Assembly: GCF_011682175.1 (NCBI RefSeq)
Contig: NZ_WHJG01000007.1
Span: forward strand, 186,001 to 250,000
Direction of reading: 5' to 3'
Length of the DNA stretch: 64,000 bases
Source of the DNA: Massilia frigida
GTDB taxonomy: Bacteria; Pseudomonadota; Gammaproteobacteria; Burkholderiales; Burkholderiaceae_D
Shown: positions 1-19,811 of the stretch, piece after piece
How the letters are laid out: each line of letters begins with the position of its first letter
Numbering within the stretch: the first letter of the stretch is position 1
Notes under the pieces: model-generated
What the model saw: the letters and a program-made list of their open reading frames with translations, nothing else
The model's database searches: none
Told to the model about the DNA's origin: nothing
Translations under genes and position numbers: made by a program

Positions 1-2
1 TC

Positions 3-333: not shown

Positions 334-729
334 ATGGCCGCAATGAATTTTTTGTTTCGAAAGCCCCGTTTCCCCATCGTCATCGACACCGGCAGCGGAC
401 TGATTGGCGCCAAGTCGTGGGCAGCGTGCGAAAAGCAGCTGGCAACCATCACTTTCGCAGACATGGCGCCACGCGACGTCATCGACGCGACCGTCGAAGC
501 GTTCTCCCTGTTTCCGGAGCATATGGTCTTCTCGCCCCTCACATTCAAGAAGCGCTGGACCAAGGCGGCGATCATTACGCTCTACAACAGCCAGAAGGGA
601 CCCGGCCGCCCAGCGTATCCGACCAACTCACTCGGCAACAAGAGCCTGGAGAAGGTGTTCGGGGACATCGTGGAGCTGCTCACCGCTCCAAGGAAAGTCG
701 ATGGCATCGTCGAGCATAAAATAAAGTAA
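334..729 (+). CDS. Hypothetical protein (131 aa)
   Basis: An ORF of 131 codons starting ATG at 334; a second in-frame ATG lies four codons downstream (343) and neither has a good ribosome-binding site. The product is basic, with FLFRKPRFPIVIDTGSGLIG near the N-terminus and a Lys-rich C-terminus, and shows no signal peptide or membrane helix. No family recognised. It sits between two other unrecognised genes on the same strand. It is accepted because its codon usage and GC pattern match the neighbouring genes and the spacing fits an operon. Confidence 0.55.
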   Translation: MAAMNFLFRKPRFPIVIDTGSGLIGAKSWAACEKQLATITFADMAPRDVIDATVEAFSLFPEHMVFSPLTFKKRWTKAAIITLYNSQKGPGRPAYPTNSLGNKSLEKVFGDIVELLTAPRKVDGIVEHKIK

Positions 730-793
730 ATCGTTTATATTCTATTCTCCCAAGACGAATATACAAGACAACTTCACAGGCAAGTTTCGACCA

Positions 794-2017
794 ATGGCTA
801 CAGCATACAAATTTCAGTTCTCCTCACGTTTCCGCCGCAACGCGTTCGGATGGAAATCAGACACCCCGATCCAACGCATCAAGGAAGCGCTCGCCGAAAT
901 CAAGGCGCTGGCCAGGAAGGAGCCTCTGCTGGCGGCCGAAGGCGCCGTGCTGTTCCTGGAGAAGCTGGCGCCGGCCATCGAACAGGTTGACAGCAGCTCG
1001 GGCCGCATCGGCTCGGCCGTCAATCGCGCCATCGAGACCCTGGTACCAATCATCGCCAAGGCGGACGTCAGCCGTGCGGCGCGCGGGAAATGGCTCGACC
1101 GGCTCTGGGAGGCGGTCCAGGAAGACGACATACCCTACCTTGAATACCTCGTGGAGTTCTGGGGCGAGCTGTGCGCGTCGCCGGAAATTGCATCCAGCTG
1201 GGCTGACCATCTGTCGCCGACGTTGACGGCAATGTGGGACCACTCTGCGCGCACGGGCGAGTTTGGCTACTTCAAGGGCACGCCAGCGTGCCTGGGCGCG
1301 CTGTTCGCGGCAGGCCGCCACGATGAACTGCTCGCCTTGATCGAGAAGTCCGAGTACCAGTACAAGTCGTGGCACAACAGAGTGTGGGGCGCCAAGGCCC
1401 TGGCTGCAGCTGGCAAGGGCGTGGAGGCCATCCGCTATGCCGAAGACGCGAAGGGACTGAACGCGCCGCTGACGGCCATTGCCGCGTTCTGCGAGGGTGT
1501 GTTGCTGGAGTCCGGGTTGGCGGATGAGGCATATGCGCGCTACGCGATCGACGCGACGTACGCAACAACCAATCTGGCCACCTTCAAGGCGATCGTCAAG
1601 AAATACCCGGGCAAGCCAAAGGAGACCGTCTTGCGTGACCTGATCGCGAGCCAGCCGGGCCAGGAGGGCAAATGGTTTGCCGCGGCCAAGGATGCCGGCT
1701 TCTTCGAGCTGGCCATTGAACTGGCGAACCGCAGCCCGTCAGACCCGCGCACGCTCATCCGCGCCGCCAGGGACTTCGCGGCCGAGCGGCCGCAGTTTGC
1801 GATGGCGGCAGGCATGACCGCGCTGCGCGGCATCGCCAATGGATGGGGCTATGACATCACGAGTATCGACGTCCTGGACGCGTACGCGGCCATGATGGCG
1901 GCGGCCGGCGCTGCGGGCGTCAATGAGAGCGTGGTCAAGGTGGATGTGCAGGCCTTGATTGCAGCAAGCCGGGGCGGTGAGTTCGTCGGGCAGGTGCTGA
2001 AACGCCAGTTAGCCTGA
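794..2017 (+). CDS. Hypothetical helical-repeat protein (407 aa)
   Basis: A 407-residue soluble, strongly alpha-helical, Ala-rich protein. Middle segments (around residues 190-260) alternate paired amphipathic helices of the kind seen in TPR-like solenoids (for example WGAKALAAAGKGVEAIRYAE), suggesting a scaffold or protein-binding role. No catalytic motif, signal peptide or transmembrane segment is visible. The preceding 64 bases are AT-rich (TTTATATTCTATTC at 736-749) and could hold its promoter. Function unknown; the repeat reading is inference from helix periodicity only. Confidence 0.75.
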   Translation: MATAYKFQFSSRFRRNAFGWKSDTPIQRIKEALAEIKALARKEPLLAAEGAVLFLEKLAPAIEQVDSSSGRIGSAVNRAIETLVPIIAKADVSRAARGKWLDRLWEAVQEDDIPYLEYLVEFWGELCASPEIASSWADHLSPTLTAMWDHSARTGEFGYFKGTPACLGALFAAGRHDELLALIEKSEYQYKSWHNRVWGAKALAAAGKGVEAIRYAEDAKGLNAPLTAIAAFCEGVLLESGLADEAYARYAIDATYATTNLATFKAIVKKYPGKPKETVLRDLIASQPGQEGKWFAAAKDAGFFELAIELANRSPSDPRTLIRAARDFAAERPQFAMAAGMTALRGIANGWGYDITSIDVLDAYAAMMAAAGAAGVNESVVKVDVQALIAASRGGEFVGQVLKRQLA

Positions 2018-2305
2018 AAAACGCACGGGTGCGCCATCAGCGCCATGCGACGACGGCGTTCGAGCGTTCAGGGGTCCCGGCTGACGACATTACCAAGATT
2101 GCGCCAGCATGCAGGCACGTGGACGGCATCAGCACGGCGGGCACGCGCAAACTGTTGCCCTGACGAGAGGGCGGCGCGCCTGACACGCCGTTCCAGGCCC
2201 CCGGGCGTTGGCGATCCGTTGTTATCGCACCAGTGGCGCTCGCCACACTTGGCCGCGCACGCGCCGGCATGGCACACTCATTGTTTCGCCAGACCAACCC
2301 AACCC

Positions 2306-3211
2306 ATGATGCGCACGATCACCAATCGCTTGCCGGGCGTTTTCCGCATGCTGGTGGCATCGCTGGCGCTCGCCTGCCCTGCCCGGGCCGCCACCGAGCT
2401 GACCTATCCGCTCTCCAGCGATGGCATCGACAGCCGCTACGACTACGACTGGGCGGTGCTGCGCGCGGCGATGGAAAAGACCGCGCCCGGCTTCGGCGCA
2501 TTCGGGCAGCGCCAGTCGCCGGTGGCGATGTCGCCGTCCCGCATCGTCCAGGAAATGTCGATGGCATCCGGCCGCATCAATGTGTTCGTGCGCGCCAGCT
2601 CGCCTGAACTGGAAAAACAATTCCTGCCGGTCCGGCTGCCGGTCGACCGCGGCCTGCTCGGCTACCGCCTGCTGCTGATCCGCCAGGACGAGCGGCCCCG
2701 TTTTGCACAAGTGAAAACGGTGGCCGACCTGCGCCCGCTGCGCGCCGGCCTGGGCCAGGGCTGGGCCGACATCCCGGTCTTGCAAAGCGCGGGCATCAGC
2801 GTGGTCGAGGGCAGCAACTACGCCGGCCTGTTCGCCATGCTGGAGGCCGGACGCTTCGATTTTTTCTCGCGCTCCGCCGACGAAGCCCTGCGCGAATTCG
2901 ATGAACGCCGCGATCAATACCGGCAGATCGCGATCGAACCGACACTGCTGCTGCACTATCCGCTGCCCCGCTATTTCTTTCTGCGGCGCGACGCGCAAGG
3001 CATGCTGCTGGCGCAGCGCATCGAGGCGGGCATGGAAATGATGATCCGCGACGGCACGCTCAACACCCTGTTCCAGCAATACAAAGGCGACATCATCGCC
3101 CGCGCGGCAATGAAGCAGCGGCGCGTCATCAGGCTGCCCAATCCGCGCCTGACGCCGGAAACGCCGCTGTCGCGCACCGAACTCTGGTTCAATCCCCTGA
3201 CCGGAAAATAA
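2306..3211 (+). CDS. Periplasmic solute-binding protein, SBP_bac_3-like
   Basis: The product is 301 residues when read from the ATG at 2306, chosen because it places an n-h-c signal peptide (hydrophobic MLVASLALACPARAA) at the N-terminus; the frame stays open upstream but that stretch is non-coding in character. After the signal the protein has the layout of extracellular solute-binding proteins of the polar amino acid/family 3 type used by some bacteria as stand-alone sensors: DLRPLRAGLGQGWADIPVL in the middle and a C-terminal GTLNTLFQQYKGD helix. No permease or ATPase gene is adjacent, so it may not serve a dedicated ABC importer. The substrate cannot be predicted. Confidence 0.75.
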   Translation: MMRTITNRLPGVFRMLVASLALACPARAATELTYPLSSDGIDSRYDYDWAVLRAAMEKTAPGFGAFGQRQSPVAMSPSRIVQEMSMASGRINVFVRASSPELEKQFLPVRLPVDRGLLGYRLLLIRQDERPRFAQVKTVADLRPLRAGLGQGWADIPVLQSAGISVVEGSNYAGLFAMLEAGRFDFFSRSADEALREFDERRDQYRQIAIEPTLLLHYPLPRYFFLRRDAQGMLLAQRIEAGMEMMIRDGTLNTLFQQYKGDIIARAAMKQRRVIRLPNPRLTPETPLSRTELWFNPLTGK

Positions 3212-3324
3212 GCGCAGCGCCGGCAAGCGGGCCTCCCGGTCGAACCCGATGTCGAGGCCCCTCCCGCCGCGATCATCCCTTGGCCCGCCACGGACCGGCG
3301 CCCTTCAGGACAAGGGGGCGCAGA

Positions 3325-4131
3325 TCAATGCGCGAGCGGACCGCGCAGGCGCGGCGCGACGGTGCCGGTTTGCGAGGCGCCGAACAGGGCGACCCGGGCC
3401 GCCTCGTAGCGTTCGATCAAATCCGCTTCCGCCACCGACGGCATGGTCAGGCTCTCGCCCTGGTCGAGCGCGAACAGGGCGGCGTCGACCATGGCATCGG
3501 CCTGCATGACGGTCTCCGGCGCCAGCGCCGACAAGGGAACGCCGGACGGGTCCCACAGCTCGGTGGCGGTGGCCGCCGGCAGCACTGCCTGGACCTTGAC
3601 GCCGGTGCCGGCCAGCTCTTGCTCCAGGCCGCGAGTGAATGCCACCACGAATGCCTTGGTCCCGCTGTAGACCGAACTGATGGCCAGCGAGTGCAGCCCC
3701 AGCACGGACGCGATGTTGATGATCGTTCCCTCATTGCGCAGCTTGAAACCGGGCAGGGCCGCGTGCGTCAGCCGGGCCAGCGCCGTGATGTTCAGCGCGA
3801 CCTGGGAGGACAGATCGGCAACGCTGCTGCCTTCAATCGGCGTCAGCCGTGCAACGCCGGCGTTATTGACCAGCACGCTGATCGCCGGGTTGGTGGCGAG
3901 CAAGTGGGCAACGCTCTCCTGCCCCGCTTCGGTGCCCAGGTCGGCGCTCAGCGGCTCGACCTGCACGCCATGCGCGGCCGCAATCGTGGCCGCCAGCGCA
4001 CGCAGGCGATCCGCGCGGCGGGCCACCAGGACCAGGTCATAGCCGCGTTGTGCCAGGCGGTCGGCGTAGATGGCGCCGATGCCCGACGAAGCGCCGGTCA
4101 CCACTGCGATTTTTCGGGAAGTGCTTGACAT
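3325..4131 (-). CDS. SDR family NAD(P)-dependent oxidoreductase
   Basis: Classical short-chain dehydrogenase/reductase of 268 residues. The N-terminus has the Rossmann glycine motif TGASSGIG (about residues 12-19) followed by the NNAG motif (VLVNNAGVA) and the catalytic YxxxK pair in SSVYSGTKAF with the upstream Ser in INIASVLG. The start at 4131 is set by AAAGGA six bases upstream; a longer in-frame extension of 35 codons runs through the promoter region and is not credible. The substrate is not predictable. Its upstream region carries an 18-bp near-palindrome (4181-4198) that looks like a repressor site. Confidence 0.9.
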   Translation of the reverse strand: MSSTSRKIAVVTGASSGIGAIYADRLAQRGYDLVLVARRADRLRALAATIAAAHGVQVEPLSADLGTEAGQESVAHLLATNPAISVLVNNAGVARLTPIEGSSVADLSSQVALNITALARLTHAALPGFKLRNEGTIINIASVLGLHSLAISSVYSGTKAFVVAFTRGLEQELAGTGVKVQAVLPAATATELWDPSGVPLSALAPETVMQADAMVDAALFALDQGESLTMPSVAEADLIERYEAARVALFGASQTGTVAPRLRGPLAH

Positions 4132-4180
4132 GGTATTTCCTTTTTGTTGAGCGTGGCGGGATGCGACGCCAGGGCACAAA

Positions 4181-4198
4181 ATATGACGATCATCATAT
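4181..4198. promoter_or_regulatory. Palindromic operator, copy 1, upstream of SDR gene
   Basis: ATATGACGATCATCATAT is an 18-bp near-perfect inverted repeat (ATATGAYGATCRTCATAT). It lies 50-67 bases upstream of the SDR start codon in the 417-bp divergent gap between the SDR and GH39 genes. Size and symmetry resemble operators of TetR-family repressors (family knowledge), but no such regulator gene is adjacent. Apart from this and the second copy I see nothing else defined in the gap 4132-4548. Confidence 0.5.
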
Positions 4199-4311
4199 TT
4201 ATATTCAAAAAAACTGCCGAACAAACTCATCGGCAATCGACGAAAACTGCTTTAGCGTGGCGAAGAAGAAGGCGCAGTGGCTAGGGGCCGTGCCTTTGTG
4301 CGATTTCGCCT

Positions 4312-4329
4312 GCATGATAATCATCATAT
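4312..4329. promoter_or_regulatory. Palindromic operator, copy 2
   Basis: GCATGATAATCATCATAT shares with copy 1 the arrangement ATGAY-N4-ATCAT at the same spacing and is followed by the AT-rich ATATCG. It is 131 bases from copy 1 and about 220 bases upstream of the GH39 start. Two spaced copies could allow one dimeric repressor to control both divergent genes. Confidence 0.45.
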
Positions 4330-4548
4330 ATCGTTTTCATTTCCGGTGCACGCCGTCAGCGGAAATGCGCGGCGCCGGGGTGCCGGCGCTGTGCCAATTG
4401 CCGGCGTCATGCGGTCCTGGCATCGATGCGTGGCGGCTGCCGCTGGCGGATTTCATAACGCGCAAACGCAGTTTTCACGATTGCGGCGCCAGCGTCCCTC
4501 TTCCAGAATGCAGGACACCTTGATCCTTGCTTGCGCGGAGAACGACAC

Positions 4549-6141
4549 ATGAGTCCAAAGAAGATCGGCATTGCCCTGCTGAGTGCCATGCTGGCCGTGC
4601 CGCTGGCAAGCCAGGCACAAACGCGCGTGATCGACATCGATACCAAGGCCATCGCGGGCCGTTTCGACCCGGCTTTCAATTTTTCCATCGGCGCCGGCCG
4701 CGCCAACGAAGGATTGCGCGCCGACTGGCAGCAGCAGCTGGCCCAGGTCAAGCGCGATGCGGGTTTCAAATATATCCGCATGCACGGCCTGCTCTCCGAC
4801 GACATGGCCGTGTACCGGGTCGACGCGCAAGGCAAGGAACAATACAACTTCCAGTACGTCGACGCGCTCTACGATTACCTGCTGAGCATCGGCGTCAAAC
4901 CCTTCGTCGAACTGGGCTTCATGCCGTCGCAGATGGTCAGCGGCGACAAAACCGTTTTCTGGTGGCGCGGCAACGTGACACCGCCTAAAGACTATGCCGC
5001 CTGGGAACGCCTGATCAGCGCCCTGACCGAACATTTCACCGAGCGCTACGGCGCGCGCGAAGTGGCCAGCTGGTACTTTGAAGTGTGGAACGAACCGAAC
5101 CTGGACGGCTTCTGGGCCGGTTCGCAGGACGACTACTTCAAGCTCTACAGCCATGCCGCGCGCGCGATCAAGCGTGTGGGCGCCAATTACAAGGTGGGCG
5201 GCCCCGCCACCGCCGGCGCCGCATGGATACCGGAAATGATCGCTTACTGCGCCAGCAATGCGGTCCCGCTCGATTTCGTCAGCACCCACACTTACGGCGT
5301 CAATCAAGGCTTCCTGGACGAATACGGCACCACTGGCACCGTGCTCAGCAAGGATGGCGATGCGGTCAGCGCCGACGTCCTCAGGAATCGCCAGCAAATC
5401 GCGGCATCGGCCATGCCGGGGCTGGAACTGCATTACACCGAATGGAGTTCGTCGTACACGCCGGCCGACCCCACGCACGACAGCTACCACCAGGCTACGT
5501 ACATCCTGCAAAAGCTCAAGCAGGTCGGCGGCGCGGCGCAATCGATGTCGTACTGGGTGTTCACCGATATTTTTGAAGAAGCCGGGCCACGCATGGAAGC
5601 CTTTCACGGCGGCTTTGGCCTGATGAATACCCAGGGAATCAAGAAGCCCGCCTATTTTGCCTACCAGTTCCTCAACCGGCTGGCCCCGGCCGCGCTGAAA
5701 AACAGCGACAGCCAATCGTTCGCCACCACCGACAAACAGGGCAAGGTCCAGCTGCTGCTGTGGGATTACACACACACGCTTCCGGAAGGCGTCAATAACC
5801 AGCAGTATTTCATCAAGGACCTGCCACCCAGGGACAAAGGCCAGGTCGCCGTCACCATGCGCGGACTGAAAGCCGGCAACTACCAGGTGACGCTCTCCAC
5901 GGTCGGCTACAAGCGCAACGATGCGTTTACCGCCTACATCGGCATGGGCTCGCCGAAACAGCTGGGGAAAAGCCAGGTCGCTGCCCTGGCATCGCTCGCC
6001 AGCGGCAAGCCGGACGAGCAAAGAACGGTGCGCGTGGGTGCCGATGGCCGCTTCAGCATGCAACTGCCTCTGCGCGAAAACGATGTGGTCCTGCTGGAGC
6101 TCAGTGCCGGCAAACCGGCCCCACGCCGGACTGTTCACTGA
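4549..6141 (+). CDS. Secreted glycoside hydrolase family 39 (beta-xylosidase-like)
   Basis: A 530-residue exported hydrolase. The ATG at 4549 has GGAG eight bases upstream and begins a signal peptide (MSPKKIGIALLSAMLAVPLA, cleavage after SQA). The TIM-barrel shows the clan-A hallmarks: the acid/base in WYFEVWNEPN (Glu182) and the nucleophile in LHYTEWSSSY (Glu298), spaced as in GH39 beta-xylosidases. The C-terminal about 130 residues look like the beta-sandwich accessory domain of that family. It probably releases xylose or related sugars from oligosaccharides in the periplasm or outside the cell. An exported alpha/beta hydrolase follows 208 bases downstream on the same strand. Confidence 0.88.
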   Translation: MSPKKIGIALLSAMLAVPLASQAQTRVIDIDTKAIAGRFDPAFNFSIGAGRANEGLRADWQQQLAQVKRDAGFKYIRMHGLLSDDMAVYRVDAQGKEQYNFQYVDALYDYLLSIGVKPFVELGFMPSQMVSGDKTVFWWRGNVTPPKDYAAWERLISALTEHFTERYGAREVASWYFEVWNEPNLDGFWAGSQDDYFKLYSHAARAIKRVGANYKVGGPATAGAAWIPEMIAYCASNAVPLDFVSTHTYGVNQGFLDEYGTTGTVLSKDGDAVSADVLRNRQQIAASAMPGLELHYTEWSSSYTPADPTHDSYHQATYILQKLKQVGGAAQSMSYWVFTDIFEEAGPRMEAFHGGFGLMNTQGIKKPAYFAYQFLNRLAPAALKNSDSQSFATTDKQGKVQLLLWDYTHTLPEGVNNQQYFIKDLPPRDKGQVAVTMRGLKAGNYQVTLSTVGYKRNDAFTAYIGMGSPKQLGKSQVAALASLASGKPDEQRTVRVGADGRFSMQLPLRENDVVLLELSAGKPAPRRTVH

Positions 6142-6349
6142 AACGCCTGCCCATCCCGCCCGCGTCGCACTAAAACCCTTGCCAGGCCTTCAAAGTTTTT
6201 CTATATTGCAAAGGTTGCTGCGCCGCAGGACACGGGTGGGTTCACCATCCGCAGTCCATGCAGCGCTCCCGAGCGCGTACGCTGTTCCCCGCCGCGCACC
6301 TTTCCGCCATGCATGTCGACGCCGCCGTGGCGTCACCAAAGGACTCACC

Positions 6350-7300
6350 ATGAATTCCCTCCGTTTACCCGCGCTGATGCTGGCCCTGGCGGCTGCTTTT
6401 GGCGTCCAGCTGCACGCCGCTGCGCAGTCCCAGCCCGTCCGTCCGGCCAAATCCGCCGAGAGCGGCGACCTTGCCGACGCGCGCAAGGGATTCCGGACCA
6501 CGCTGGTGCGCAAAATGCCCGCGCAGCCGCCCATCCCGGCGCCGCCGGCCGAGGTCTTCAAGCTGGTGAGCTACGATGCCGCGCCCGGCAAACTCGGCGC
6601 GTATCTGACGCCCGACCCGCGCGACGGCAAAAAGCATCCGGCCATCATCTGGATCACCGGCGGCGACTCCAACAGCATCGACGCGCTGTGGCAACCAGGG
6701 CCGGACAGCAACGACCAGACCGCGAGCGCCTATCGCAAGGCGGGCATCATCATGATGTTCCCGTCTCTGCGCGGCGGCAACGACAATCCCGGCGTGCGCG
6801 AAGGCTTCCTCGGTGAAGTCGACGATGTGCTGGCCGCCGCAAGCTACCTGGCCAGGCAAGCGTACGTCGATCCCGACCGGATTTACCTCGGTGGACACAG
6901 TACCGGCGGCACCCTGGCGCTGCTCACAGCCGAAATCTCGACGCGCTTTCGCGCCGTCTTTGCCTTTGGCCCGGTTGAAGACATCGATGGCTATGGCGGA
7001 CGCTTCACCGGCTTCAATCCGGCCAATCCGCGCGAAGCGGCGCTGCGCTCACCCGGGCGCTGGCTCGAATCGGTGCGCTCGCCGGTATTCGTGATCGAAG
7101 GCGCGGGAGGCAATATCGACTCGCTGCTGGCCATGCGCAGCGCCACGCGCAACCAGCATATCCGCTTCATTCCGGTACACGGCGCCAATCACTTCAACGT
7201 GCTGGCTCCGGCGAACAAGCAGATCGCGCAGAAAATTCTCCTCGACACCGGGCCGGCCACCAATATCACGCTATCCCCCGCGCAAATGGCGCCGCGCTAG
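6350..7300 (+). CDS. Exported alpha/beta hydrolase (prolyl oligopeptidase-like fold)
   Basis: A 316-residue protein starting at the ATG at 6350 with AAAGGA six bases upstream. A signal peptide (LPALMLALAAAFGVQLHAAA) is followed by an alpha/beta-hydrolase domain: the oxyanion strand HPAIIWITGGD, the nucleophile elbow GGHSTGG (about residues 182-188), and a late His in HGANHFNVL. This resembles S9-type esterases/peptidases of the DUF/dienelactone hydrolase kind; the substrate is unknown. The gap upstream (6142-6349) contains an AT-rich TTTTTCTATATTGC at about 6197-6210 that could be a promoter, so it may be transcribed apart from the GH39 gene. Confidence 0.85.
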   Translation: MNSLRLPALMLALAAAFGVQLHAAAQSQPVRPAKSAESGDLADARKGFRTTLVRKMPAQPPIPAPPAEVFKLVSYDAAPGKLGAYLTPDPRDGKKHPAIIWITGGDSNSIDALWQPGPDSNDQTASAYRKAGIIMMFPSLRGGNDNPGVREGFLGEVDDVLAAASYLARQAYVDPDRIYLGGHSTGGTLALLTAEISTRFRAVFAFGPVEDIDGYGGRFTGFNPANPREAALRSPGRWLESVRSPVFVIEGAGGNIDSLLAMRSATRNQHIRFIPVHGANHFNVLAPANKQIAQKILLDTGPATNITLSPAQMAPR

Positions 7301-7631
7301 GCAGCGCCACGCGGGCAACGCGGCCCTCATGAGCAGGCACCAGATCGGGCTGTTTGCCACATGCCACGACGTTGACCGCAGCTCCCGGCTGTTTAGCAAA
7401 CAGGTCGGCATGGCATTCAGTGCCGCCGGAGCCGGCTCATGCGTATGCTTGAGCGCGGCAAGCATGCTGATGAGCAGGAAAGTACGGTATGAATTGTCTG
7501 CGATGACATGATTTGCTAGAATCATCTTGTTTTTTTTATATTTAACATATATCGAGCAAGATCAAATCGCTTGCCGACCTGGAAAACGCCATCGCCATGC
7601 ATGCCAAAAAAACCCTGTTCGTTGCCCGGAA
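7301..7631. other. Gene-free stretch before the effector island
   Basis: No credible coding sequence: short frames here lack ribosome-binding sites. The right half is AT-rich (a run of nine T at about 7529-7538 and TTTAACATATATCGAG) and holds a promoter-like pair described separately. The left half is ordinary GC-rich sequence in which I see nothing. Confidence 0.5.
7494..7522 (+). promoter_or_regulatory. Putative sigma70 promoter of the ankyrin/EagR/Rhs island
   Basis: TTGTCT at 7494-7499 and TAGAAT at 7517-7522 are separated by exactly 17 bases. The predicted transcript start near 7530 would leave a leader of about 100 bases before the ankyrin gene at 7632. Motif matching by eye only. Confidence 0.45.
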
Positions 7632-8438
7632 ATGAATAAAGCTCTCCGTGCCGCCGTGCTGGCTGCCTGCGTGCCGGGTTTGCCACTGGCCTGGGCAGCG
7701 CCGTTGCCCAACCAGCCATCGGCGCTCCAGCGCTGTCCCGCCAGCGCCGACAGCGCCGACAAACGCCAGGCCGCCGACCGGCCGCCGGCCCGCGCGCCAC
7801 GCATCTTTGGCGCCCTCGGCAAGGAGCGCCACGCGGCGCTGAAAAAAATCCTGGATGCCGGTGACAATCCGAATTCCTGCCATGGCGGCATCACGCCGCT
7901 GATCGCGGCGGCGGCCAGCGGCGATGTGGACGCCCTCCACATGCTGCACCAGGCCGGCGCGGTGCTCGATGCGCCGCGTGGCGCCCAGGGTGGCAGCGCC
8001 CTGCACGCGGCGCTGGCCAGCAGCCGCTGGCCGGCCGCGAGCGCCCTGCTCGAACGCGGCGCCGATGCGCGCCAGCGCGACGACCATGGCAATACCGGCC
8101 TGCACCTGCTGGCCAACAGCGTCCACACGGCGGACACGCGCGCGCAAACCGCGCTGGCCGACATGATGCTCAAGGGCGGCGCCGCGATCGACCTGGCCGG
8201 GCCGCAAGCGAACACCCCGCTGATGCTGGCCATCGAAGCCGGCAACCATGACCTGACCGCTTTCCTGGTCGACCAGGGCGCCGACCCGGCCCTGCGCAAC
8301 GCGCGCGGCGAGAACGCGCTGGCCATCGCGCGGCGGCGCGCCCTGCCCGGCATTGTCGCCATGCTGGAGCGCTGCATCGGCCAGCGTCCGCCGCACTGCG
8401 CCGATAACGCCGCGCCGCCGCGCTACTCGACCAAGTAG
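7632..8438 (+). CDS. Exported ankyrin-repeat protein
   Basis: The product has 268 residues from the ATG at 7632, chosen because it begins a signal peptide (MNKALRAAVLAACVPGLPLA, then WAAP); longer in-frame starts lie in the promoter region. After a linker rich in Ala, Pro and Arg, four to five ankyrin units cover about residues 70-245 (NSCHGGITPLIAAAASGD, GSALHAALASSRW, HGNTGLHLLA, ANTPLMLAIEAGNHD, GENALAIARRRA). Ankyrin proteins bind other proteins; periplasmic ones are often found beside secreted toxins. It precedes the EagR/Rhs genes by 62 bases on the same strand, so a link to the effector is possible but unproven. Confidence 0.85.
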   Translation: MNKALRAAVLAACVPGLPLAWAAPLPNQPSALQRCPASADSADKRQAADRPPARAPRIFGALGKERHAALKKILDAGDNPNSCHGGITPLIAAAASGDVDALHMLHQAGAVLDAPRGAQGGSALHAALASSRWPAASALLERGADARQRDDHGNTGLHLLANSVHTADTRAQTALADMMLKGGAAIDLAGPQANTPLMLAIEAGNHDLTAFLVDQGADPALRNARGENALAIARRRALPGIVAMLERCIGQRPPHCADNAAPPRYSTK

Positions 8439-8500
8439 GGCCAGTCCCTGCCGACGCCCCCATTGCCAATCACTTTTTTCTCAGAAAACGGAACCAGCAC

Positions 8501-9004
8501 ATGAGCGACAACACCGCAGCAAACAGCACGGACCCGGCACCCCGGGTCGGCATCCACGAAGGCAGCATCGGCCTACCCCCAGGCTACCAGGACAACACCA
8601 CCAATATCTTCGTACCGGCCGACCTGCAAAACCAGCCCAACCTGAGCATCGCGCGCGACTGGCTGGCCGAAGGCGAAACCCTCGCCACCTATGTCGACCG
8701 CCAGCTTGGCCTGCTCAAGGCGCGCCTGGCCGGCCACAAGCTGCTCGAGCGCACGCAAGAGCGCCTTGGCGCGCACCAGCCGGACATGCTGGGCGAACGG
8801 ATCGACGCACAGTACAAGAACGGGCCCCAGACGATACGCCAGCGCCAGGCCGCTTTTTTGATCGGACCGAAACGCGCGCTGATCCTCACCGCCGCCACCG
8901 CGCGTCCGTTCGACGAGCGTTTTGATACCCTGTGGCGCAATTGGCTCGACAGTTTTGCACCGCCCGCCAGCACCAGCGGGGACCTTAGCTCAACCGACGC
9001 GTAA
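8501..9004 (+). CDS. EagR-type chaperone (DcrB/DUF1795-like) for the PAAR-Rhs effector
   Basis: A small 167-residue cytosolic protein directly upstream (20 bases) of a PAAR-Rhs gene with N-terminal membrane segments. This position, the size and the DcrB/DUF1795-like features (N-terminal [18 protein letters not shown], then helical [18 protein letters not shown], the strand QRQAAFLI, and the final [15 protein letters not shown] helix) match the effector-associated gene (Eag) chaperones, which shield the transmembrane regions of type VI Rhs effectors until loading onto VgrG (family knowledge). Assignment rests on context plus motif resemblance. Confidence 0.8.
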
Positions 9005-9024
9005 AAACCCAACGGAACGCCGCC

Positions 9025-12000
9025 ATGTTCGAAGCCGCCCGCATTACCGACCCCATTTCCCACACCAGCGCACTGGCCGGTTTTCTGGTCGGCGCGATCA
9101 TCGGCATCGCTCTCATCGCCGCCGTCGCCTTTGCCACCTTCACCTGCGGCTTCGGCGTGGCCCTGCTGGCGGGCCTGGCGGCCGGCGTCGGGGCGAGCGC
9201 CATCCTTTCGCTCAGCGAGAGCATCGGCAAGATGTTCTCGTCGCCGGCCGGGGTCATCGCCACCGGCTCGATGAACGTGTTCGCCAATAGCCTGGCGTCG
9301 GCCTACGCCACCGTCAGCACCGTCGCCTGCAGCATGCACCCGCCGGCGCCGGTGGTGGCCGACGGCTCCGGCAACGTCTTCATCAACAGCCTGCCGGCGG
9401 CGCGCAAGAGCGACACCATCGTCTGCGGCGCCAAGATCGACGGCGGCTCGGACAATGTGTTCATCGGCGGCGGCACCGTGCGTTACAAGGAAGTGGCCGA
9501 CGAAGTCCCGGCCTGGCTGCGCACCACGGTCGACTGGGCCTTCGCGCTGGCCGGCCTGGTGGGCGGCCTGGCGGGGCTGGTCAAGGCGGCCGGCGGGCTA
9601 TCGAAGGCGCTGCTGCCGTGCGCGGCCAAATTCATCGGCGGCTTCATCATCGGCGAAGCGGTGGGACGCTATGTCATCTCGCCGGTCGTCAGCCGCGTCA
9701 TGGGCGGCTTGTTCGGCAAACCGGTGGAGGTGGCCACCGGCCGCAAGATCCTGCTGGCGCAGGATGAAATCGACTTTGTCGTGCAAAGCCCCCTGCCCCT
9801 GGCCGGCGCGCGCTTTTACGCCAGCAACCTGACTTGGGAAGGCAGCTTGGGCCGGGGCTGGGTACTGCCCTGGGACCTGCGCCTGCAGCAGCGCGACGGC
9901 AAGATCTGGTACAGCGACGGCCAGGGCCGCGAAACCGGCTTCCCGCTGGTGCAGCCGGGGCACACGGCCTTCAGCGAATCCGAACAATGCTACCTGGCGT
10001 GCAGCGCCGACGGCCAGTACATCCTGTACACCCTCAACGAAACCTACTTCGACTTCGGCCACCTCGACCTGGCCAGCGACAACATCGCCTGGCTGCGCCG
10101 GGTCGAGGACCGCAGCGCCCAGTGGATCAGCTACCAGCGCGACGACGCCGGCCGGGTCGAAACGATCCGCTCCAGCGGCGGCCAGGAACTGCGCCTGCAC
10201 TACAGTGCCCTGCCGGCGCGCCTGACGATGGTCGAATGCACCGAGGGCGGCACGCCCGGACCGCTGGTGCGCTACGGCTACGACGGCGCCGGCCAGCTGC
10301 TCTCGGTCACCGATGCCAATGGCGACCTGTCGCGCCAGTTCACCTGGGCCGACGGCCTGATGACCAGCCACACCACGGCGCTCGGCCTGGTATCGAGCTA
10401 CACCTGGGCCGTCGTCGAAGGCCAGCCGCGGGTGGTGGCCTGCCGCTCCAGCGAAGGCGAACACACCGAATTCCGCTACGACGTGGCGGGACGCCAGAGC
10501 TGGGCCACCGACGAACTGGGACGCAGCGCGCACTGGGTCTACGACGAGAACTTCCAGATCGTCGCCTGCACCGATCTCGATGGCGGCAGCTACCGCATGC
10601 ACTACAACGCGGCCGGCCAGCCGCTCCTGATCGAGCTGCCGGGCGAGCGCACGATCGCCTTCGAATACGACCAGACCGGCCGCATTGTCGCCGAGACCGA
10701 CCCGCTCGGGCGCGTGACGCACACCGCCTACGACGGCAACAGCCTGCGCGTGAGCCAGCTGACCACGGCCGACGGCAAGCGCTGGAGCGCGCATTACGAT
10801 TACCTGGGCCGCCTGCTGTCGAGCACCGACCCGCTGGGCCGCGAAGCGCGCCAGGAATACCCGCCCGGCCTCAGTCCCTACCCGGTGCTGCGCATCGATG
10901 CGCGCGGCGGGCGCAAGTTCCTGGCCTGGAACCGGCGCGGCCTGCTCACCTCCTACACCGACTGCTCCGGCAAGACCACGCAGTACGCGTACGATGCCGA
11001 CGGCCTGCTGGCCGAAGCGATCGATCCGATGGGCCAGCGCACCCGCATCGAGCGCATGCGCAGCGGCGAACCGGTGCGGGTCACCCTGCCCGACGGCAGC
11101 GTCGAAGCGTTCGAGTACAACGCGGCCGGCCACCTGGTCGAGCGCCGCTATGGCGCCGAGCGCGTCAACCAATGGGTGCGCAATGCGCGCGGCCAGGTGC
11201 TGGAGGCGATCGACCCGGCGCAGCGCCGCCTGCGCTATCGCTACGATGTGAAGGGCCGCGTGGTGGCGATGGAAGCCGGCAGCGACGCCCATTACCGCTT
11301 CGAATACGACAGCGCCGACCGCCTCGCGCGCGAAATCCGGCCTGACGGCATGGAGCGCCTGCTGCGCTACGACGCGGCGGGCAGCCTGGTGGAGATCGAA
11401 AAGATCGGCGCGCCGCTGCCGGCGCAAGCCGAACGGCCGCGCCGCAGCACCCGCTTCGAGCGCGACAAGATGGGACGCCTGCTGGCGCGCCTGACCGCCA
11501 GCGCCACCACCCGCTATGCCTGGGACCAGCAAGACCGCCTGCTGGGCGGCGCGCGCGTGCCGACCGATGCCGGCGCCGCGCTCGGCGTGGTGGCCAGCAC
11601 GGTCAACTTCGACTATGACGACGCCGGCCGCCTGGTGGCCGAACACGGCGCCGAGGGCGCGGTCGGCTACGCATTCGACGAACTCGATAACCTGACCACG
11701 CTGAACCTGCCGCACGGGCAACGCATCGACACGCTCACGTACGGCGCCGGCCATGTGCACCAGATCCGCAGCGAGCAGCACGTCATCAGCGACTTCGAGC
11801 GCGACGACCTGCACCGCGAAGTGCAGCGCACCCAAGGCCGCCTGACCCAGCGCATGGGCTACGACGCGCTCGGACGGCGCGCCTGGCAGGCGAGCGGCCT
11901 GCATGCCGACAGCGTGGGCCAGGAACAGGGCCGCCTGTGGCGCAATTACCGCTACACCCCGGCCGGCGAACTGGCCGAACAGCGCGACAATCTGCGCGGC

Positions 12001-13317
12001 GGCATCGACTTCCAGTACGATCCGGCCGGCCAGCTGCAACGCGAAACGCGCAGCGCCGAGCAGCGCCAGGAACAATTCGCGTGGGACGCGGCCGGCAATC
12101 TGCTGGACGACATCGGCGCCAGGAGCCGCGGCCAGGTGGAGGGAAACCGCCTGCGCGTGTGGCAGGATATCCGCTTCGACTACGATGCCTGGGGCAATGT
12201 GGCGACCAAGCGCAAGGGCGCGCACCAGGTGCAGCGGTTCACCTTCGACGCCGAGGACCGCCTGATCAAGGTCAGCACCGAATCCTTGCGCGGGCTGGTG
12301 GAAATGCGCTTCGACTACGACCCGCTGGGCCGGCGCATCGCCAGCACCGAGACCCGCACCGACACGCGCGGCATCACGCAAGCGGAGCGCAAGCGCTTCG
12401 TCTGGCAAGGCTTGCGCATGGCGCAGGAAGTGCGCGAGCGTGGCGTGAGCAGCTATGTGTACAGCCCGGACGCGGCCTACACGCCGCTGGCGCGCATCGA
12501 TGCGGTGATCGGCGGGGCGATGGCGGCGGCGGCGATCGACAATGCCCGCCAAGGCACGCGCGTGTTCCACTTTCACACCGACCTGGTGGGCGCGCCGCTT
12601 GAAGTGACCGACGACGCCGGCGAGATTGCCTGGGCTGGCAAGTACAAGGCCTGGGGCAAGGTCGATGAAGGCGAGGACGCGGCCCTGGTGGCGCGCATCG
12701 ACCAGCCGCTGCGCTTTCCGGGACAGTACGAAGACCACGGAACAGGGCTGCACTACAACACGTTCCGGTATTATGATCCGGATGTGGGACGCTACATCAG
12801 CCAGGACCCGATCGGGCTCGATGGCGGCGCGAACTTGTATGCCTACGCGCCCAATCCGAGCGGGTGGATGGATCCGCTGGGGTGGATTCATGAGACGACG
12901 CCGGGGTACTTCGTGTACGAACTCTGGGCGCCGGGTGCCACCAAGCCATACTATGTCGGCATTACCGACGACCTGGCCCGGCGCAAGACAGAGCATCGCG
13001 AATCCGGCCGCATGCCGAAGGGGGCATCGATGAAGACGATTGCAGATGACGTTACGTATGGTAAAGCTCGTGGCATCGAACAAGCACACATAGAATTTAA
13101 AGAAACGAAGACCGGAACGGTGGGATCCGATCTGAAGAAGGCAACTACATACGACCAGCGAGGCAACAAAATTGCCTCATTCGATCACGATAATTTGACC
13201 CGCGACCGAACCCGCCAGGCATATTTTGAAAGCGAATTTAAAGCCGAGAAAGCGCGACTTGACGCCAGTGCCGATGGCAGTGGCAGCAAAGGTAGCAAAG
13301 GCGCGGGAGGCTGCTGA
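9025..13317 (+). CDS. PAAR-Rhs type VI effector with GIY-YIG nuclease-like C-terminal toxin
   Basis: 1430 residues. Order of parts: hydrophobic segment about 18-65; PAAR domain about 75-155 ([59 protein letters not shown]); second hydrophobic segment about 168-225; DUF6531-type entry ([19 protein letters not shown]) near 240; then a long array of YD/RHS repeats to about 1130; the Rhs core ending [19 protein letters not shown] (DPIGLDGG at 1261-1268) and MDPLGW at 1282-1287, the usual autoproteolysis and toxin boundary. The variable tip (1288-1430) reads as GIY-YIG nuclease-like: Tyr1298, YVG with Tyr1310, Arg1319/1320, His1324 and Glu1352 in GIEQAHIEF. The PAAR and helices would cap VgrG with help from EagR; the tip is the presumed DNA-cutting toxin. 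GC content falls sharply in the last 300 bases, a sign of toxin exchange. Confidence 0.92.
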
Positions 13318-13358
13318 GCGGCCAGTTGGAAAATGCATTTATCAATAAGGAGCGTGTA

Positions 13359-14060
13359 ATGGGATGGTGGAGTGCACCGGACAACCCGGAAGTAACCGTT
13401 GGCGATGCCGTACTGGACTCGGTCCGGCATTTTCTGCGCGATTTCAGCCGCGAATACCAGGAAGATTTGTCGCGAAAGCCGACCCTTCAGGAACTTGAAT
13501 ACGCCCTGAATCTGGCGTTCAAAGTCAACGTCGACAGCGACATCCTCGACGGCTTTGACGAACTGGAGATCAAACAGGTCGCGCTGAAAACTGCCAAACG
13601 ACCGAAAAAACATAAAGTGACGCCAGGCGATATTTTTGCATACCGGCTGGAGGACGGCCGTTTCGGGTTTGGCCGCGTCGTCAGCCTTGCATCCGTCGGC
13701 GCATTTGCTGAGATCTTTGACTATTTCTCCGATCAACCCGTATTTGACTACAGCAAGCTCGATAAATGGCTTGTGCCGCCGGTACCGATTGAAAGCTATG
13801 CGCTGCTGGAGACGCGCTCGATTGGCGATTGGCGCACCATTGGCCATACGCCAGATTTCGTGCCCGGGCCGAAGTTCAACTCGCTGCGTTATCGGTACGG
13901 TTCCACCCCGAACACGCTAATGGCGATCGATATTTATGGCAAAAAGGCGCCAATCAGCGCTGCTGAAGCCGAAGGCTTGCAGGAATACTCTTCCTATGAC
14001 GATTTCACCTTTAACGAATTCATCGTCAGTCATGTCCCGCCCCGCGCGAAGGAAAAATGA
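13359..14060 (+). CDS. Imm26-family immunity protein, copy 1
   Basis: A 233-residue protein. The ATG at 13359 has AAGGAG six bases upstream; an earlier in-frame start at 13326 has none. The N-terminal helical half (MGWWSAPDNPEVTVGDAVLD...) is followed by the Imm26-type strand cluster KVTPGDIFAYRLEDGRFGFGRVV at about residues 88-110, which is the signature I used. Placed 41 bases after the Rhs stop codon, in the standard effector-immunity order. Expected to neutralise the nuclease tip in the cytoplasm of the producer and its kin. Base composition is lower in GC than the Rhs core, like the toxin tip. Confidence 0.85.
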   Translation: MGWWSAPDNPEVTVGDAVLDSVRHFLRDFSREYQEDLSRKPTLQELEYALNLAFKVNVDSDILDGFDELEIKQVALKTAKRPKKHKVTPGDIFAYRLEDGRFGFGRVVSLASVGAFAEIFDYFSDQPVFDYSKLDKWLVPPVPIESYALLETRSIGDWRTIGHTPDFVPGPKFNSLRYRYGSTPNTLMAIDIYGKKAPISAAEAEGLQEYSSYDDFTFNEFIVSHVPPRAKEK

Positions 14061-14102
14061 GTCCATACGCCAAATGTGCAGCTTCTGAATAGGAAGAGAT
14101 TG

Positions 14103-14804
14103 ATGGGATGGTGGAGTGCGCCGGACAATCCGGAAGTAAGCGTAGGCGATGCCGTGCTGGATTCGGTACGGCATTTTCTGCGTAATTTCAGCAGCGAGTA
14201 CCAGGAAGACTTGTCGCGCAAACCGACGCTGCAGGAACTTGAATACGCCCTGAATCTGGCGTTCAAAGTCAACGTCGACAGTGCCATCCTCGACGGCGTC
14301 GACGAACTGGAAGTCAAGCAGGTTGCCCTGAAAACCGCCAAGCGGCCAACGAAGCACAAGGTGACGCCAGGCGATATTTTTGCGTACAAGCGGGAAGACG
14401 GCCGCTTCGGATTTGGCCGCGTGGTCGCCGCCGCCTCGGTCGGTGCGTTTGCCGAAATCTTCGATTATTTCGCCGAACAGCCGGTCTTCGATTACACCAA
14501 GATCGATACCTGGCTGGTGCCGCCGGTGCCCATCGAAAGCTACTCCCTGCTCGAAATGCGTTCGATTGGCGACTGGCGCATTATCGGCCACACGCCGGAC
14601 TTTGTGCTGGGTCCGAAATACAAGGCCTTGCGTTATGTCTATGGTTCCAACCCGAACACGCTGATGTGGAAGAATATGGAAGGCAAGTCGGCACCAATCA
14701 CCCCGGCCGAGGCGGAAGGACTGCCGCGCTACGTCGGCCTGGACGATTATCTGTTCGAGCAGCACCTCGCCAGCCACGTTCCACCGCGCAAACCAGCTAA
14801 ATAG
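14103..14804 (+). CDS. Imm26-family immunity protein, copy 2 (tandem paralogue)
   Basis: The same length (233 residues) as the preceding gene and, by eye, about three quarters identical to it; the first 90 residues are nearly unchanged while the last 45 differ strongly (TLMWKNMEGKSAPITPAEAEGLPRY against TLMAIDIYGKKAPISAAEAEGLQEY in the first copy, then a different tail). The start at 14103 (ATGGGATGGTGG) matches the start of copy 1 and follows AGGAAGAG. A hairpin without a T-run (TGTTCCG...CGGAACA, 14813-14836) lies just after the stop. Either a second immunity gene for a related toxin or an expanded resistance pair. Confidence 0.82.
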   Translation: MGWWSAPDNPEVSVGDAVLDSVRHFLRNFSSEYQEDLSRKPTLQELEYALNLAFKVNVDSAILDGVDELEVKQVALKTAKRPTKHKVTPGDIFAYKREDGRFGFGRVVAAASVGAFAEIFDYFAEQPVFDYTKIDTWLVPPVPIESYSLLEMRSIGDWRIIGHTPDFVLGPKYKALRYVYGSNPNTLMWKNMEGKSAPITPAEAEGLPRYVGLDDYLFEQHLASHVPPRKPAK

Positions 14805-14862
14805 CGTGCACATGTTCCGTCGCCTGCGGCGGAACAGATCAACGGAGGGCGGGTGGCAGCCA

Positions 14863-15307
14863 CTATCCCGCTCGACCGCAGAATTTGCCCCACTGGTTGC
14901 GCAGGCAGTGCCCGAACGCCTTCGCCACCGCCAACTTGCCCTGCACCGTTCTCAAGGTAACCGTGCAAACGAAAGGGGCGCCCCCCGCATTGCATGGGGA
15001 GCGCAGCGACGGGTAGGTCGGCATTGAACTGTATGTACACGCTCGCTTGCGCAAGCTCCGCCAACGCGATGCCCTTGTTGACCAGCGCGCGCTGCAAAAA
15101 CGCCGCGTCATTTTTAGCGACCTGGGAGGCGCCGCGAGTAGACGGTATGGCAACACCGTCGAGCAATAGCAACAGAAAGGCGTAGTCAGGCGCGCTCGCC
15201 TCCTTGTACAGCTCGCCGAGCGCCCGGTAGCCGCCCACATCGTTATTGCGGCCGACGAAAGACTGCGACACGCCTGCCGCCACATGCTTCAAGGTTCCAA
15301 GCTTCAT
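14863..15307 (-). pseudogene. Frameshifted small gene (about 147 aa), unknown function
   Basis: Two frames join into one protein if a single base is removed from the six-C run at 14981-14986 (six G on the coding strand). The first frame runs from the ATG at 15307 (AGGA six bases upstream) as MKLGTLKHVAAGVSQSFVG... to LPMQCGG; the second continues APFVCTVTLRTVQGKLAVAK...and ends at 14863. The interval of 445 bases is not a multiple of three, as expected. It is either a true indel mutation or a sequencing error in a homopolymer. I do not recognise the family; no signal peptide or membrane segment is evident. Confidence 0.6.
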
Positions 15308-15579
15308 CATGCATCCTAGGTGGAAGGGGCCATACAGGCAGCACAGCGCATGCCACCCGGACTGCCATCCCCGGCGTTCGTTTTCCGGTTTATTCATATT
15401 AATATTCGGACACCTCATATTGCCGATCGACATCACTGGCGCGAATAACGCATATAGCCGTGAATTTGGCATTATTGACGTCAGTGATATGAGGCATCAT
15501 AAATCGAAATTTTCTTTATAGCTGAGACTCTCTTATACTGCACTGCAACAACGCAATTTAATCCCCAGGAGAGTTCCAA

Positions 15580-17459: not shown

Positions 17460-19811
17460 ATGCGCCTATTTATCCTTCCCCTCCTGGCCGCGATGTGGGC
17501 GATCCCCGCCGTCGCCGCCACGCCCATCAGCCTCGACCAGGCGATGGCCCACCCCGACTGGATCGGCACGCCGGCGGAAACCGCCTGGTGGAGCTGGGAC
17601 GGCAAGCAGGTGTTTTACAAACAGAAGCGCACCGGTTCCCAACTGCGCGACATCTACCAGGGCGCGCCCGGAAAACCACGCCTGGTGGGCGACGCCGAAC
17701 TGGCCAACCTGGACAGCGACAAGGTCATCTACAACCGCGCGCGCACCCGCTCGATCATGCTGCGCAACGGCGACCTGTTCGAACGCGACCTCAAAAGCGG
17801 CGCGCTGACCCAGATCACGCGCGGCAGCAGCGGCCTGGCCGCGCCCCAATACGCCGCCGATGGCCTCAGCGTGCAGTTCCGCGTGGGCCACGAATGGCTC
17901 GGCTGGAACCGCGCCGACCGCCTGATCTCACCGCTGGCCGCGGCGCGCGCCACCAAGGACCCGGACGCCGCGCCGGATGCCGACAACCTGCGCGACCTGC
18001 AACTGCGCCTGATCTCCACGCTCAAGCGCCAGAAGGACGACCGCGACGCGGGGCGCGAGCGCGTCGAACAGGAACGCCGCGCCGATCCCACGCGCGCACC
18101 GGCGCCGATCTACCTGGGTGATAAAGTCGTCATCGACGGCAGCGCGCTGTCGCCGGATGGCCGCTGGCTGCTGCTGGTGACCGCGCCAAAGGCCACCGAC
18201 AAGGGCCGCATCGGCAAGCTGCCGCGCTACGTGACCGAATCGGGCTACGAAGAATTCGACGACCAGCGTCCGCGCGTGGGCCGCAACGCACCGGTGTCGC
18301 ACACGCTCAAGCTGGTCAACCTGGCCACGCGCGAGATGCGCGAGCTGTCCTTCGACAACCTGCCCGGCATCGGCGTCGATCCGCTGGCCGACCTGCGCAA
18401 GGCGCAAAAACTGCCTGAGCTGAAAGGCAACCGCGTGGTACGCGTGGACGACGACGGCGCCGCCGTCGAATGGAACCGCAACGGTACCGGCCTGGCGGTG
18501 ATGCTGCGCGCCGCCGACAACAAGGACCGCTGGATCGCCACCGTCGACCTGGCCGGCGCCACGCTCAAGCCGGTCCACCGCGTCACCGACAACGCCTGGG
18601 TCAACTCGGGCAACAACGAATTCGGCTGGCTGCCCGATAACAGCACGCTGTGGTACCTGTCCGAAGAAAGCGGCTACGCGCACCTGTACACCCGCGCCAG
18701 CGACGGCAAGACGCGCGCGCTCACGCAGGGCAAGTGGGAAGCGACCCGCATCCAGTGGTCGGCCGATGGCAGCACGGCTTTCATGATGTGCAACCCGAAG
18801 AACCCGGGTACGTATGAAGTGTGCTCGGTCTCGGCCGTTGATGCCAAGCTGCGCGAAGTGACGGCGCTCGAAGGCGTGGAGCAGTTTGCGCTCTCGCCGG
18901 ATGAACGCAAGCTGCTGGTGCACTATTCGTCGAGCTACATGCCGGCGCAGCTGGCGACCGTCGCTGCCAGTGGCGGCGCACCGGTCAAGCTGACCGATAC
19001 GCGCTCGCCTGATTTCAGGGCACGCAGCTGGATCGAGCCGCAGTACGTTGCCGTGCCGTCGACCAAAGGCGCGGGCCAGATCTGGGGCAAGCTGTATCGC
19101 CCGGCGAATCTGGAACCGGGCAAGAAGTATCCAATCGTGATGTTCGTGCACGGCGCGGGCTACCTGCAAAATGTGAGCAAGCGCTATCCGGTGTACTTCC
19201 GCGAGCAGATGTTCCACAACCTGCTGGTCGAAAAGGGCTACATCGTGCTCGATCTGGACTACCGCGCATCCAGAGGCTACGGGAGCGCCTGGCGCACCGC
19301 GATCTATCGCCAGATGGGCTATCCGGAGCTGGAGGATTACGTCGATGGCGTCAACTGGATGGCGGCGAACCACCAGGGCGACCTGAAAAACGTGGGCGTG
19401 TATGGCGGCAGTTATGGCGGCTTCATGACCTTCATGGCGCTGATGCGCGAACCGGAGATGTTCAAGTCGGGCGCGGCGCTGCGGCCTGTAACCGACTGGA
19501 CGACTTATAACCACGAGTACACCGCGAACATCTTGAATACGCCGGATCTCGATCCGGAGGCGTACCGCAAGTCGTCGCCGATCGAATACGCCGACAAGCT
19601 GCGCGGGAACCTGCTGATCTCGCATGGGATGGTGGACGATAACGTGTTCTATCAGGATTCGGTGCGCATCGCGCAGCGCCTGATCGAGCTGAAAAAGGAT
19701 CACTGGGAACTGGCCAGCTATCCGCTGGAACGCCACGCGTTCGTGCAGCCGGAGAGCTGGTACGACCAGTATCGCCGGATTTACCAGCTGTTTGAGCGGA
19801 CGTTGAAGTAA
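17460..19811 (+). CDS. Exported S9-family peptidase (dipeptidyl peptidase IV-like)
   Basis: 783 residues with a signal peptide (LFILPLLAAMWAIPAVAA), a beta-propeller N-terminal domain (about 35-510, repeated SPDGRW/WSADGS-type blades) and a C-terminal alpha/beta hydrolase. The catalytic triad is visible: Ser651 in YGGSYGGFM, Asp726 or 727 in HGMVDDNVFY, and His759 in ERHAF. The order and length match prolyl oligopeptidase/DPP-like enzymes, which cleave proline-containing peptides in the periplasm. No operon partner; a palindromic repeat follows the stop. Confidence 0.9.
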   Translation: MRLFILPLLAAMWAIPAVAATPISLDQAMAHPDWIGTPAETAWWSWDGKQVFYKQKRTGSQLRDIYQGAPGKPRLVGDAELANLDSDKVIYNRARTRSIMLRNGDLFERDLKSGALTQITRGSSGLAAPQYAADGLSVQFRVGHEWLGWNRADRLISPLAAARATKDPDAAPDADNLRDLQLRLISTLKRQKDDRDAGRERVEQERRADPTRAPAPIYLGDKVVIDGSALSPDGRWLLLVTAPKATDKGRIGKLPRYVTESGYEEFDDQRPRVGRNAPVSHTLKLVNLATREMRELSFDNLPGIGVDPLADLRKAQKLPELKGNRVVRVDDDGAAVEWNRNGTGLAVMLRAADNKDRWIATVDLAGATLKPVHRVTDNAWVNSGNNEFGWLPDNSTLWYLSEESGYAHLYTRASDGKTRALTQGKWEATRIQWSADGSTAFMMCNPKNPGTYEVCSVSAVDAKLREVTALEGVEQFALSPDERKLLVHYSSSYMPAQLATVAASGGAPVKLTDTRSPDFRARSWIEPQYVAVPSTKGAGQIWGKLYRPANLEPGKKYPIVMFVHGAGYLQNVSKRYPVYFREQMFHNLLVEKGYIVLDLDYRASRGYGSAWRTAIYRQMGYPELEDYVDGVNWMAANHQGDLKNVGVYGGSYGGFMTFMALMREPEMFKSGAALRPVTDWTTYNHEYTANILNTPDLDPEAYRKSSPIEYADKLRGNLLISHGMVDDNVFYQDSVRIAQRLIELKKDHWELASYPLERHAFVQPESWYDQYRRIYQLFERTLK

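Follow-up and report, generated by a model that had tools for sequence, protein, structure and literature searches.

A PAAR-Rhs type VI effector cassette of Massilia frigida with a putative GIY-YIG toxin tip and a variable array of Imm26 genes

Two described type VI secretion system (T6SS) effectors, RhsA with EagR1 of P. protegens (PMC8765631) and Rhs1 with SciW (PDB 6xrr), lie close to the subject of this report, a PAAR-Rhs cassette of Massilia frigida. In the parts of these sources drawn on here, a SciW-type EagR, prePAAR, PAAR, cage, tip and adjoining immunity gene are shared with it. The M. frigida operon differs in having an ankyrin gene instead of vgrG, a different tip, and at least two immunity paralogues. 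The pairing of Tox-URI1 with Imm26 and the use of Tox-URI1 by the T6SS have also been published (Zhang et al. 2012, PMC3482391, in the portion used here), and the residue signature and immunity family of that account are the same here. Among the papers found to mention Massilia, type VI secretion and Rhs together, none was seen to deal with a Massilia Rhs effector. The DNA analysed (the window) consists of 64,000 nt of M. frigida (GCF_011682175.1, contig NZ_WHJG01000007.1, positions 186,001 to 250,000, forward strand). The host is a soil-type bacterium.

The cassette occupies positions 7632-14804 and consists of five genes, all on the + strand and all with intact reading frames, in the order ankyrin, EagR (DcrB), PAAR-Rhs with a GIY-YIG tip, Imm26 and Imm26 (Table 1), with gaps of 62, 20, 41 and 42 bases. 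A preliminary description, made from the sequence letters alone, had proposed this order on one strand with short gaps, and is supported on nearly every point. The EagR, PAAR-Rhs and Imm26 assignments all exceed curated profile cut-offs, and the genes lie where it placed them except that the first Imm26 start was corrected to ATG 13359. We read the cassette, with a probability of roughly 0.8, as an antibacterial T6SS effector accompanied by its chaperone and immunity genes, evolving by exchange of tips of the same family while Imm26 lineages are retained.

The EagR protein matches DcrB (PF08786) at 1.3e-33 (116.3 bits, cut-off 27.2), and its closest solved chaperone in the PDB is SciW (6xrb, 2.4e-29), followed at a distance by EagT6 (2.9e-07). 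The Rhs protein (9025-13317) has 1430 residues and begins with prePAAR_I (residues 1-58, 3e-25, 88.7 bits) and PAAR (73-138, 2.5e-11, 44.1 bits); residues 2-55 match the Rhs1 peptide of PDB 6xrr. The cage matches DUF6531 (9.2e-18), RHS repeats (1.3e-70) and RHS (3.8e-17), with all RHS families over cut-off, and its best solved relative is 7q97 (E 5.2e-186). By these domains the protein is classed as a class I prePAAR PAAR-Rhs T6SS effector adjoining eag. Its proposed loading, injection, tip release, cleavage and protection follow from the families and from the RhsA model (PMC8765631, in the part drawn on). EagR would hold the N-terminal membrane segment of Rhs, and prePAAR and PAAR would dock the protein onto a VgrG from another place in the genome. 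The cage would carry the tip, to be released inside the target cell, where its GIY-YIG active site would cut nucleic acid, probably the DNA of rival bacteria, while Imm26 proteins would bind the tip and shield the producer. Tips of one GIY-YIG family would swap under a conserved cage, with several old Imm26 lineages retained behind.

The GIY-YIG-like nature of the tip, suggested at the outset from motifs, is upheld by conserved residues, predicted structure and Imm26 linkage; by Pfam score it falls short (17.6 bits, cut-off 22.6). GIY-YIG is the top Pfam match in five of five tips and is under the cut-off in all five. The published Tox-URI1 residues Y, YxG, R, [RK]xxE and N (PMC3482391), which we placed on the tip alignment ourselves, fit columns that are invariant in eight of eight tips, and the predicted structure has a GIY-YIG (URI) fold resembling GIY-YIG nucleases. 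Together these features support assignment of the tip as a putative Tox-URI1-like nuclease. An Imm26-type frame lies directly behind the tip at all nine places examined, in eight genomes or records. These are the window, M. rubra (G007), M. atriviolacea (G014), M. aquatica (G016), two genomes of another genus in the same family (G1061 and G1089), two places in Caballeronia (L045), and a plasmid of Bernardetia (L076, Bacteroidota); an Imm26 query gave the Caballeronia places, and queries with the tip gave the remainder. The pair is rare. A search of 60 relatives revealed Imm26 of the window's kind in 4, and within the genus the tip is present in 4 of 17 genomes, its own included. Relatives of the tip match in 8 of 391 family genomes (five strongly) and, beyond its own genome, as weak matches alone (20-23 bits) in 1 of 398 order and 10 of 368 class genomes (L058-L067), all lower bounds with just 10 or 11 first-look candidates scored in many genomes. 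The Imm26-neighbour check covered the five strong family matches and the weak matches L053 and L073-L075; of these four weak matches, L073 alone is adjoined by an Imm26-like frame, which scores weakly as well (13 bits).

In L073 (G1012, 963-2007, - strand) a frame of 193 residues with a weak tip match is directly followed by the weak Imm26-like frame, possibly a free-standing Tox-URI1/Imm26 pair. One Salmonella plasmid record carries, at its end, a tip match of 39 residues. On the Bernardetia plasmid (NZ_CP147019.1, L076:5501-11346), annotation places AHH-domain genes, an Imm43 gene and an Rhs-core piece past the GIY-YIG Rhs and its Imm26, perhaps a plasmid-borne store of exchangeable tips. 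Many Rhs tips have a cysteine close to their end. Among 30 loci fetched, of which four had no recognisable tip boundary, 12 of 26 show it in the final five positions (GGC, CRC, CKC, CFC), or 9 of 23 tips once those alike by eye are merged. The cysteine-ending loci are the window (13300-13317), L078, L079, L085, L087, L088, L091, L095-L097, L103, L104 and L107. A cysteine frequency near 1% would predict far fewer. A literature search on C-terminal cysteines of Rhs effectors returned nothing on the topic by title.

The cassette is also present in the three sister species, where the order ankyrin, eag, rhs, tip and Imm26 copies is kept throughout and the ankyrin, eag and cage proteins are 71-90% identical to those of the window. 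On the downstream side, the flank of each sister is 76-88% identical to the window in DNA. Upstream, M. atriviolacea shows a match of ~2.7 kb reaching near the ankyrin gene. In M. rubra 400 bases match where the fetched piece ends, ~6.2 kb before the ankyrin gene as against 1.5 kb in the window; the 6.4 kb fetched upstream of the M. aquatica ankyrin gene has no match to window positions 1-7600. The conserved downstream flank thus indicates the same site in the sisters, with the upstream side rearranged. Intact Imm26 copies number two in the window, six in M. rubra, five in M. aquatica, and two plus a fragment in M. atriviolacea. The locus is a homogeneous polyimmunity locus, with tandem paralogues of one type whose number varies among close relatives. 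When the same-strand frames of at least 50 residues in the four Massilia loci were searched by profile, each locus gave a single tip, and no old tips stood between the Imm26 genes.

The cassette had been called unusually complete. All of its parts are present, but the phrase is somewhat overstated because the two relatives of another genus carry a fuller vgrG-eag-rhs-tip-Imm26 operon, which lacks the ankyrin gene and has one Imm26 copy in G1061 and two (the second broken) in G1089. The Massilia cassette resembles an operon of this kind in which an ankyrin gene has taken the place of vgrG, a direction of change that we infer. The ankyrin gene precedes eag in all four Massilia loci (71% identity) and has no match in the two related loci (L112 and L113) where vgrG occupies that place. 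Ankyrin proteins are counted as an immunity type, Imm-ank, in the portion of PMC3482391 used here, and the signal-peptide-like start seen by eye suggests that this one might act in the periplasm.

Both Imm26 proteins exceed the PF15428 cut-off of 23.3 bits (Table 1), and they are 79% identical to each other. Their genes start at ATG 13359, behind AAGGAG, and at ATG 14103, both with a purine-rich, ribosome-binding-like stretch upstream. The Pfam match spans residues 89-165. It is preceded by a segment of ~85 residues that occurs with Imm26 in 54 of 54 matches and is absent from the Caballeronia and Bernardetia proteins. The structure model (predicted local distance difference test score 85.4) has a hairpin and two helices in the N-terminal segment and, behind a weak linker, a core rich in beta structure, whereas Imm26 is described as mostly alpha in the text drawn on from Zhang et al. 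(PMC3482391). In 50 aligned Imm26 proteins the mean frequency of the commonest residue is 0.67-0.87 in the blocks before residue 171 and drops to 0.39-0.59 in those of 171-230.

The tree built from 23 Imm26 proteins, with good support for 8 of its 20 inner branches, clusters copies across species. The imm2 lineage joins imm2 with copies 3 of M. rubra, 1 of M. aquatica and 2 of M. atriviolacea (support 100/100); it is found in all four Massilia loci, although its position in the array varies (2, 3, 1 and 2). The imm1 lineage joins imm1 with M. rubra copy 5 and P0001 (99/97), and M. rubra copy 4 pairs with P0002 of Massilia sp. DJPM01 (100/99). Gene conversion inside the arrays was considered and rejected, since identity within genomes is not above that between genomes; among 15 copies, those with their closest counterpart in their own genome number 1, 2 and 1 over residues 1-84, 85-170 and 171-233, respectively.

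The tip has diverged far more than the cage that carries it. Between the window and DJPM01 (P0072), 11 of 1288 residues differ before the tip and 22 of 124 within it (Fisher p 8e-17), corresponding to 99% identity for the cage and 82% for the tip. On what is presumed to be the same DJPM01 contig are the imm1-like P0001 (4 of 233 residues differ), a further copy, and the imm2-like P0032, which is off-frame after about residue 158. Synonymous difference between the window and the three sisters was expressed as a fraction of the saturation value expected from the codon use of each part; absolute dS (synonymous divergence) depends on the method, an alternative giving higher values for cage and N-terminus. 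The fraction reaches 0.88-0.92 in the tip. It is 0.43-0.75 in thirds of the cage, 0.46-0.55 in the Rhs N-terminus, 0.55-0.59 in eag, 0.55-0.60 in imm2, 0.63-0.82 in the ankyrin gene and 0.26-0.76 in flanking genes; the stretch 17460-18959 has no match in the three fetched loci, nor has the gene at 5131-6138 in M. aquatica. For imm1 it is 0.66 against its lineage partner in M. rubra and 0.88 against the nearest copies in the other two species. Synonymous sites of the tip are therefore near saturation and those of the cage are not. We read this unequal divergence, together with the shared Imm26 lineages, as exchange of same-family tips under a retained immunity set. The near-identical imm1 in DJPM01 argues against a simple joint swap of tip and immunity gene. 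Under exchange, imm1, the immediate neighbour of the tip, is probably its working partner, with imm2 probably an older immunity that has been retained.

Alternatively, both Imm26 proteins, or imm2 and not imm1, could be needed against the present tip, so that the array is no store. The imm2 lineage occurs in each of the four Massilia loci and has diverged about as much as the cage, which is consistent with such a dual role, and two unlike immunity proteins are reported to act on the T6SS nuclease Tde5 of Pseudomonas (PMC13392607, in the part used here). However, between two and six copies stand behind a single tip, the imm2-like gene on the presumed DJPM01 contig has lost its frame while the imm1-like gene is intact, and the copies differ most at residues 171-233, as expected of different specificities. 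We consider the dual role possible but doubtful.

The main rival to exchange itself is diversifying selection on the immunity-binding surface of the tip, which would produce the excess divergence without any replacement of the tip. Of the 22 tip differences between the window and DJPM01, 12 fall within two short stretches of the tip, positions 43-53 and 80-87, and none affects the seven signature residues, as such selection could explain. It would not readily account for the near-saturation of synonymous sites in all three species comparisons when the adjacent upstream cage is not saturated, or for G+C at third codon positions of 0.59 in the tip compared with 0.86-0.91 in the cage thirds, as for imported DNA. 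For the three sister species the synonymous result thus argues against selection on the tip surface, and we regard this explanation as unlikely. A broader form of the exchange reading, put forward only tentatively, is that the cassette is a recognition locus in which GIY-YIG alleles replace one another beneath an unchanging cage. Behind the cage, Imm26 lineages that predate the species, sharing an N-terminal module and differing in a changing recognition surface (171-233), would be kept, lost and re-ordered. If so, the locus would resemble trans-species polymorphism.

The tip may also be an RNase or another phosphodiesterase of GIY-YIG fold rather than a DNase. Imm26 is linked to RNase toxins in the section of PMC11669294 drawn on, although the same source lists PAAR-RhsA-GIY-YIG as a putative DNase. 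The solved GIY-YIG relatives among the matches listed are DNA nucleases, and the Imm26-protected T6SS effector TepC is a DNase (PMC10833071, in its consulted part). An activity other than that of a DNase is accordingly improbable.

The absence of VgrG and core T6SS genes from the window, noted at the start, extends to its entire contig (C233, 258 kb), which has no TssC or VgrG match and whose only PAAR match is the Rhs protein of the cassette. A genome without T6SS is nonetheless excluded, because the assembly (7.79 Mb, 255 contigs) holds four TssC and 17 VgrG-type matches (16 over cut-off), together with nine PAAR (two in one frame), four DcrB and 18 Rhs-core matches. Lying apart from every T6SS cluster found, the cassette must borrow a VgrG encoded elsewhere. 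That it is a silent relic, no longer fired and without the adjacent vgrG of G1061 and G1089, is very improbable given its five open frames, its retention in four species, a cage ratio of nonsynonymous to synonymous divergence (dN/dS) of 0.24-0.41 in three comparisons, and the 58-67% identity of 8 of 12 VgrG loci compared (of the 17 matches) to the VgrG of those two relatives. Another PAAR-Rhs gene of this genome (L051:3290-5096, G000:C111) has an N-terminus 71% identical to that of the window and a different tip. The fetched stretch around it has no eag match, and perhaps this protein shares the EagR of the window. Behind it lie two tandem genes, look-alikes by eye, of about 290-330 residues and without Pfam match, perhaps a second duplicated immunity pair.

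Within the region, promoter-like sites number 2 against 1.8 expected, both just upstream of the ankyrin gene, and terminator-like sites 13 against 7.8 expected. On the - strand, a frame at 14747-15472 faces the cassette from its downstream side; part of the stretch that holds it is conserved in M. atriviolacea.

Table 1. Coordinates of the cassette features within the window
Feature	Position	Strand	Evidence
Ankyrin-repeat protein	7632..8438	+	Ank_2 5.5e-16; signal-peptide-like N-terminus by eye
EagR chaperone, DcrB/PF08786, SciW-like	8501..9004	+	Profile match and solved-structure similarity
Rhs residues 1-160: class I prePAAR, membrane segment(s), PAAR; predicted spike-loading end	9025..9504	+	
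Rhs cage, residues 161-1288: DUF6531, RHS repeats, RHS-associated core; DPLGW boundary at end	9505..12888	+	
Putative C-terminal toxin tip, GIY-YIG (Tox-URI1-like), 142 residues; disordered tail, terminal GGC	12889..13317	+	
imm1: Imm26, adjoins tip; extra N-terminal segment of ~85 residues	13359..14060	+	PF15428 36.5 bits
imm2: Imm26 paralogue	14103..14804	+	PF15428 30.0 bits

The type of weapon is already known, and its fast-changing tip and immunity set suit the study of an arms race. The PAAR-RhsA-GIY-YIG protein of Salmonella SPI-6 (PMC11669294, in the section drawn on) has the same domain order, compared by name. However, it is encoded within a T6SS cluster as a tssI-eagR-rhs module, and the window cassette is not. 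TepC/TipC of Yersinia pseudotuberculosis (PMC10833071, as far as its consulted part goes) combines a T6SS DNase with an Imm26-domain protector, like the putative pair described here, but TepC is a free effector of 81 residues without a recognised domain and not an Rhs protein. In the portion of PMC3482391 used here Imm26 is placed in heterogeneous polyimmunity loci and is not among the prominent homogeneous types, whereas the Massilia loci carry a homogeneous array of two to six copies behind a full Rhs gene. That set, with its unannotated N-terminal segment and predicted beta-rich core, also offers a test of the description of the family as mostly alpha. Replacement of an effector or tip with older immunity kept downstream, as proposed here, is described for Vibrio cholerae arrays (PMC5361080) and the Serratia Rhs1 locus (PMC10539506) in the parts of those accounts drawn on. 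There the orphan immunity genes are of different types, and in the Vibrio arrays effector and immunity types replace each other. Here all copies are Imm26 and all compared tips GIY-YIG, the families staying constant while the alleles differ, so that toxin-immunity specificity could be mapped inside a single fold. With several natural tips and 15 intact Imm26 copies, the four species supply a ready matrix for such tests.

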